From: Anaerolineae bacterium
GTDB lineage: Bacteria; Chloroflexota; Anaerolineae; B4-G1; SLSP01
Assembly (NCBI GenBank): GCA_016934645.1
Contig: JAFGSL010000706.1
Location: 1-16,275 of the forward strand
DNA length: 16,275 bases
Reading direction: 5' to 3'
Both the position numbers and the translations under genes were made by a program. The notes beneath the pieces were generated by a model. The model worked only from the letters and a program-made list of their open reading frames with translations. It was not told where the DNA came from and did not search any database. Shown here piece by piece: positions 1,173-1,574 of the stretch (position 1 is its first letter; each line of letters begins with the position of its first letter).

Positions 1173-1574
1173 ATGACAGAAGAAAATAGGACAGCCTCAG
1201 TGAAGATTGGTGTTTTCCGGCATTGGATGATCACTTTACGCGACATCCAGTGGGAAGTCGAGGAGTTTCAATATGACCTCGAGTATCAGCTTTACGAACG
1301 TGACGTCACCCAACGCCTCTACAATGCAACAGGAGACGAGAAAGAACGCAGGTATTGGCAGAAACAGATCAACAGGATCGACAAAGCGATATCTGCCACC
1401 GAAACGGAACTGAGCAAGTTGCAGAGACAGGTTGCTTACTGCGAAGCTATGCTCGCCGTTATCCGGAGCGATCTGGAAGCCGAGGGCATCGATCCCGACA
1501 CCTGTGATTTGGACGAGTTCCTCTTCGGTGATGAATTGGACACAGACTTTGACGAGGACGACATTCCATTCTGA
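1173..1574 (+). CDS. Small helical/coiled-coil protein with an SSB-like acidic C-terminal tip, unknown function
   Basis: I do not recognise this 133-aa protein as a known family. Residues 20-100 are rich in charged and leucine positions without prolines and look like long alpha helices, probably a coiled coil. From residue 105 the chain is strongly acidic and ends in [10 protein letters not shown]. coli SSB ends in DFDDDIPF, the tip that docks many DNA repair and replication proteins. No OB fold is apparent, so this is not an SSB itself. There is no signal peptide or membrane segment. The start at 1173 is chosen for its strong ribosome site. It lies 5 bp after rmd and 82 bp before gmd, in the same direction, so it is probably co-transcribed with sugar-nucleotide genes although nothing in it suggests a sugar-related role. 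Confidence 0.75.

Follow-up and report, generated by a model that had tools for sequence, protein, structure and literature searches.

A protein of 133 residues encoded in the stretch of DNA analysed here (16,275 nucleotides, hereafter the window) is not a single-stranded DNA-binding protein (SSB), but it bears a C-terminal motif of the SSB type (SSB-Ct) on a hairpin that belongs to an undescribed family. Its open reading frame comprises 133 codons (1173-1574, forward strand), and the product ends in DFDEDDIPF (1545-1571, +) directly at the stop codon. The gene, hereafter the tip gene, is genuine and subject to purifying selection, and the data support its SSB-like tip as a constrained feature and no coincidence. 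As to the function, we give an even chance to the proposal, drawn from the sequence and from a structural model, that the protein presents an SSB-Ct-type ligand without having an OB-fold ssDNA-binding domain and acts as a decoy or an adaptor.

The tip gene starts 5 bases past the stop codon of an rmd-like gene and ends 82 bases short of gmd. The former (211-1167, +) encodes an SDR, probably a GDP-6-deoxy-D-lyxo-4-hexulose reductase, whose closest solved relative is 2pk3 (E 2.9e-74) and which reaches no NCBIfam cut-off; the latter (1657-2625, +) encodes GDP-mannose 4,6-dehydratase (TIGR01472, 441 bits vs. a cut-off of 415) and is followed by a hexose-phosphate mutase gene of the phosphomannomutase/phosphoglucomutase family (2643-4064, +; Pfam PGM_PMM I-IV), the product of which likewise reaches no NCBIfam cut-off. 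The placement between rmd and gmd, as the earlier note had it, is therefore borne out by these matches. The order rmd - tip gene - gmd is found in all four loci (the window and three genomes); gmd is followed by the mutase gene in the window as well as in L001 and L003, and L017, which lies on the same contig as L002, contains the start of that gene. A Shine-Dalgarno sequence AGGAGG (1158-1163, +) stands within the last codons of rmd, 9 nt 5' of the tip gene ATG at 1173, and, judging from this arrangement, translation of the tip protein is likely to be coupled to that of rmd. A comparable AGGAGG..TAA..ATG junction occurs in L002 and L003, and in L001 it comes after a 126-nt spacer between rmd and the tip gene (9854-9979 of that locus), the end of which is a second junction of the AACAGGAGG type ahead of the ATG.

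The four genes may form one transcription unit, with a sigma-70-like promoter candidate upstream of rmd (102-129, +; TTGACT - 16 - TATAAT, called by an 11/12 consensus match only) and a terminator-like hairpin of 12 pairs 3' of the mutase gene (4162-4189, +), closing the putative unit. Both calls are consensus matches at frequencies little above the shuffled expectation (four promoter-like sites in 4.5 kb vs. a mean of 2.9 in shuffles, and seven terminator-like hairpins vs. a mean of 3.7). The window also contains tandem repeats of 14-15 nt, in two copies each, upstream of gmd (1606-1635, GAAGACTATTTGACT) and upstream of rmd (124-151, TATAATGCCAGGCA). Past the terminator-like site lies an ORF of 310 aa (4375-5307), which is kept downstream in L001 (76% identical) and L003 (58%) and weakly resembles the 3-methyladenine DNA glycosylase 2jhj (E 0.028). 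Further on, the reverse strand carries an ORF of 1114 aa (7227-10571, -) with golvesin C-terminal, Amidase_3 and fn3 domains, and by eye a similar ORF is present in the downstream region of L003.

A search of approximately 5.8 billion proteins gave 51 candidates, of which 32, including the query, constitute the tip-protein family. Its members are 53-83% identical to the query, and in every one of them Pro-Phe are the last two residues; thus the SSB-like end, read directly from the translation of 1173-1574, is kept within the family while the body varies, which was one of the checks set beforehand. Position -4 is acidic in 32 of the 32 members and position -5 in 31; residue -3 is I in 24, L in four, V in three and A in one. 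The C-terminal hexapeptide is DDDIPF (8), DDEIPF (6), EDDIPF (5), EDEIPF (3), EDELPF (2), DDELPF (2) or one of six single variants, and in the family alignment the acidic tail is of varying length ahead of the fixed PF end. Across the four loci the codons of the tip change with the residues remaining the same (ATT/ATA/ATC/ATA, CCA/CCA/CCC/CCA and TTC/TTC/TTC/TTT), and dN/dS is 0.10-0.18 in five of the six pairs, at dS values that are generally high and, for the sixth pair, not computable. In the excerpted text of PMC10164576, the receptors of SSB-Ct are described as taking the last Phe into a hydrophobic pocket, its carboxylate at a basic lip and the Asp residues at a basic ridge, with binding dependent on the Pro; the residues conserved in the tip (Phe with a free carboxyl, Pro and the acidic run) are the same as those read by these receptors.

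The body of the protein is predicted to be an antiparallel helical hairpin without an OB fold. In an AlphaFold2 model built on the 32-row alignment, helices are formed by residues 3-52 (codons 1179-1328, +) and 56-103 (1338-1481, +) with a mean pLDDT of 86, in agreement with the helical, OB-less body expected earlier. The remaining residues 104-133 (1482-1571, +) make up a tail with a net charge of -14 by residue count, which is mostly disordered according to its low confidence values (pLDDT of about 50 from position 111 onwards) and includes one short helix at 113-117. The protein has no Pfam match to SSB (PF00436), nor does it give anything over the cut-off in Pfam and NCBIfam or any sequence match in PDB, and no sugar-nucleotide enzyme domain was recognized in it with these three resources. 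Its matches in PHROGs are scattered and weak (best E 6.7e-4) and were taken for coiled-coil noise. Foldseek against PDB gave neither model a match at E 0.001 or better; T4 UvsY, which ranks 26th for the hairpin with E 0.66, was discounted as evidence. An origin from a phage SSB mimic has no support, as no relative was found among viral contigs and the phage and plasmid collections.

Profile comparisons place the hairpin in a wider context: it has a homologous counterpart at the C-terminus of a larger, unannotated Anaerolineae family, whose proteins have approximately 290 residues. These larger proteins consist of an N-terminal Cys-rich stretch, predicted helical repeats and the C-terminal hairpin; in P0129-P0248 the N-terminus has the motif CxxRCPGCGxCCxGYRD ... 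CGxxCPGYGxCC followed by HEAT-like helices. The 133-aa tip protein is devoid of the Cys-rich and helical-repeat part. A profile of the tip family run against 396 genomes of the class at E <=0.01 gave 12 matches, namely the three genomes carrying the tip gene, eight remote ones (E between 2.8e-16 and 1.6e-12 for seven of them, and 6e-4 for the eighth, which is truncated) and one nitroreductase-like protein, which was taken for a chance match. In the reverse direction, the profile of the 290-residue family has matches in 13 of the 396 genomes and finds the tip gene in G001 (1.7e-15) and G002 (8.3e-13), though not in G003 at 1e-10. The hairpin is also present in compact proteins of approximately 104 residues, encoded next to rluB-like and cmk-like genes (named by reading of the sequence). 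For the 290-residue family no Pfam or PDB relative was found, and no common gene neighbour was recognized in its loci (L057-L062 among them), the neighbours there being without tool annotation. The remote relatives for which DNA was seen are located outside sugar operons, so the supposition that the gene always sits in such operons holds for the four loci of the tip family and not for the hairpin as a whole.

The tip itself is much less constant among these relatives. The best 120 of 122 matches of a second protein search comprised 24 members of the tip family (eight of the 32 were not among them) and 96 remote proteins, with best local identities of 26-43% among the matches listed; with the best 120 of 205 matches of a third search, the remote proteins listed from both amount to 216. 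Of these, some of which are fragments, 22 end in F and 12 in PF: five of the 96 (DEDLPF twice, DKALPF, TDEIPF and DEALPF) and seven of the 120. The Phe-ending relatives of about 290 residues include P0221, P0226, P0231, P0239-P0241 and P0248. The nine remote C-termini visible in whole genomes all lack a PF end. Since 204 of the 216 listed proteins lack the PF end, the tip marks a lineage and does not define the hairpin; a constant tip on a variable body recurs here in a minority of the sequences.

Within the larger hairpin family the Phe-ending tips are confined to a part of the tree. For tree building on 104 columns, 25 of the 248 rows were dropped for an incomplete hairpin and 38 of the remaining 223 as near-copies, which left 185 hairpins. 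In a quick tree of these, all 11 remote PF rows kept share one subclade of 23 rows (support 89), with an F end in 20 of them (VDF, IEF, STVF, ELIF, VAF and PF, among others), and outside this subclade an F end occurs in one of 131 remote rows. In a careful tree of 73 chosen rows, the quick one being the weaker method, the Phe-ending remote rows split into three groups, with many forks unresolved. A single clade of the tip family and the Phe-ending rows was not rejected by the AU test (p 0.587) and had a log-likelihood 6.3 above that of the free tree, the group having been named after the first tree had been seen. The tip may, judging from these trees, have had a common origin or have arisen repeatedly; a single origin is not established.

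Close members of the tip family were found in three genomes, one Thermoflexus sp. bin and two 'Chloroflexi bacterium' bins (G001-G003). These carriers are the only ones among 396 genomes of the class and among 48 of the order, six of which match at 1e-6, the same three included; the gene is hence dispensable for SSB traffic in general. By comparison, gmd is present at E <=1e-100 in 344 of the 396. In the nearest relative examined that has no tip gene, G333, the gmd and rmd products are 89 and 80% identical, respectively, and their genes are adjacent, separated by an empty gap of some tens of bases. Considering this arrangement, the tip gene is best read as an insertion: it probably came to the rmd-gmd junction in one lineage, although, alternatively, it may have been lost elsewhere.

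One alternative to a functional tip is that an acidic tail came by chance to end in PF and was inherited without function. The family members are related, so that the 32 of 32 are not independent observations, and the counts of a pattern scan lend some weight to the same view: when the three carrier genomes were searched for [DE][DE][NTN codon]PF followed by TRR, five matches were obtained (three tip genes, one SSB and one sequence with TGG, which is no stop), barely above the four given by the reversed pattern as control, and the evidence consists accordingly in which genes match, not in how many. The loci retrieved contain 717 distinct stop-to-stop ORFs with a length of 150 aa or more, a mixture of genes and chance frames in which SSB loci, retrieved for their SSBs, are over-represented; ten of these ORFs end in PF, and they are nine SSB tails and the tip protein of L003. 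Synonymous turnover of the codons under fixed residues, the low dN/dS, the varying length of the tail ahead of its fixed end and the occurrence of PF ends in remote relatives all speak against chance, which is disfavoured and in our opinion very unlikely. Still slightly less probable is a split SSB, in which the tip protein would supply the tip in trans to a tipless SSB paralogue. Each of the three carriers does possess one tipless SSB (L046-L048), but each also retains a second one ending in IPF or VPF (EGGIPF, ESEIPF and EEEVPF), and a tipless SSB ORF is present in nine of 14 non-carriers as well (G143, G177, G211, G261, G313, G319, G326, G333 and G350), so that co-occurrence gives this idea no support. 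In the 17 genomes together, 33 SSB-domain ORFs were found, 18 of them ending in PF; many of these genomes have two SSBs, one often without the PF tip, and in L046 and L047 the tipless SSB follows an ORF read as ribosomal protein S6. No PF-ending SSB was found in G211 and G326, whereas the other 15 of the 17 genomes, all three carriers included, have at least one, and for this reason receptors of the tip probably exist there.

The main rival of the SSB-Ct reading is that the tail serves as a C-terminal linear motif for a partner from the operon (Rmd, Gmd, the mutase or a glycosyltransferase), regulating or scaffolding the synthesis of GDP-deoxyhexose, its likeness to SSB-Ct being a result of convergence on a short acidic-hydrophobic motif. 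This would account for the strict placement between rmd and gmd in all four loci, for the Shine-Dalgarno sequence within rmd and for the predicted sharing of promoter and terminator. The RecG proteins of the carriers point in the same direction: aligned with R467, R474 and R614 of the E. coli protein, they have E, F and E/A, which speaks against RecG as a receptor of the tip there, although a shift of one or two columns would bring other arginines near. On the other hand, the motif has all the sequence determinants of SSB-Ct, and the rmd and gmd of G333, adjacent and lacking the tip gene, indicate that the enzymes work without the tip protein. We regard a partner within the operon as unlikely, though worth serious consideration. 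The presentation of an SSB-Ct-type ligand, for its part, has to be reconciled with operon neighbours that are sugar-nucleotide enzymes, with the absence of the RecG pocket arginines (which depends on the alignment and concerns one receptor), with the 204 of 216 listed remote relatives that have no PF end and with the presence of the gene in only three of 396 genomes of the class.

If the tip protein does present an SSB-Ct-type ligand, it would be a small, probably cytoplasmic protein in which a single antiparallel hairpin of helices is followed by a flexible, acidic tail with a functional copy of SSB-Ct at its end. The tip would dock in the pocket of at least one host receptor of the RecO, PriA or RecQ class and, because the body is a hairpin and no OB fold, would be presented away from ssDNA; it could then either titrate the enzymes from SSB, as a decoy, or bring them to a binding partner of the hairpin, as an adaptor. 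The gene would be expected to be co-expressed with the synthesis of GDP-6-deoxyhexose. The earlier suggestion of an SSB mimic or adaptor is strengthened by the constraint on the tip, by the retention of the residues read by the receptors and by the predicted hairpin without an OB fold, and it is weakened by the finding that the tip does not define the hairpin. More tentatively, and below even odds, we suppose that this is a natural DNA-free carrier of the SSB tip: a chromosomal non-OB lineage, derived from a larger hairpin family and tied by its operon to the synthesis of cell-surface sugars, that competes for or redirects the clients of SSB. Among the openly licensed papers that literature searches listed, no title or abstract describes a natural non-SSB protein with an SSB-Ct tip. 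The SSB C-terminal tip is a hub signal in genome maintenance, and a host-encoded copy of it on another body, if the proposal is true, would give cells a means of regulating the SSB interactome, by decoy or adaptor. The finding also offers a way into a large unannotated family of Anaerolineae.

In comparison with known systems, the tip protein has in common with bacterial SSBs (DFDDDIPF in E. coli; DDDIPF in the excerpted text of PMC8509808) a flexible acidic tail with [DE][DE][ILV]PF at the stop codon and a free Phe carboxylate; it differs from them in its carrier, which is a predicted hairpin in place of an OB fold, and no ssDNA-binding domain was found in it. Long antiparallel helices are also characteristic of generic coiled-coil hairpins in PDB such as CT398 (4ilo), HP0958 (3na7) and T4 UvsY (4zwt), the resemblance being one of shape alone, with no evidence of kinship. 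The Anaerolineae family of about 290 aa shares a homologous hairpin, and one quick-tree subclade has 20 F-ending rows out of 23, including 11 with PF, but its proteins possess approximately 180 additional N-terminal residues and most of the members listed are tipless. A further known system is PriB-SSBc, an engineered fusion with the SSB tail, for which the same excerpts of PMC8509808 give raised ssDNA binding by PriB and raised stimulation of PriA. Like the tip protein, it carries the SSB tail on a different body; however, PriB-SSBc is man-made and its body is an OB fold, whereas the tip protein is natural and its body is a predicted hairpin.
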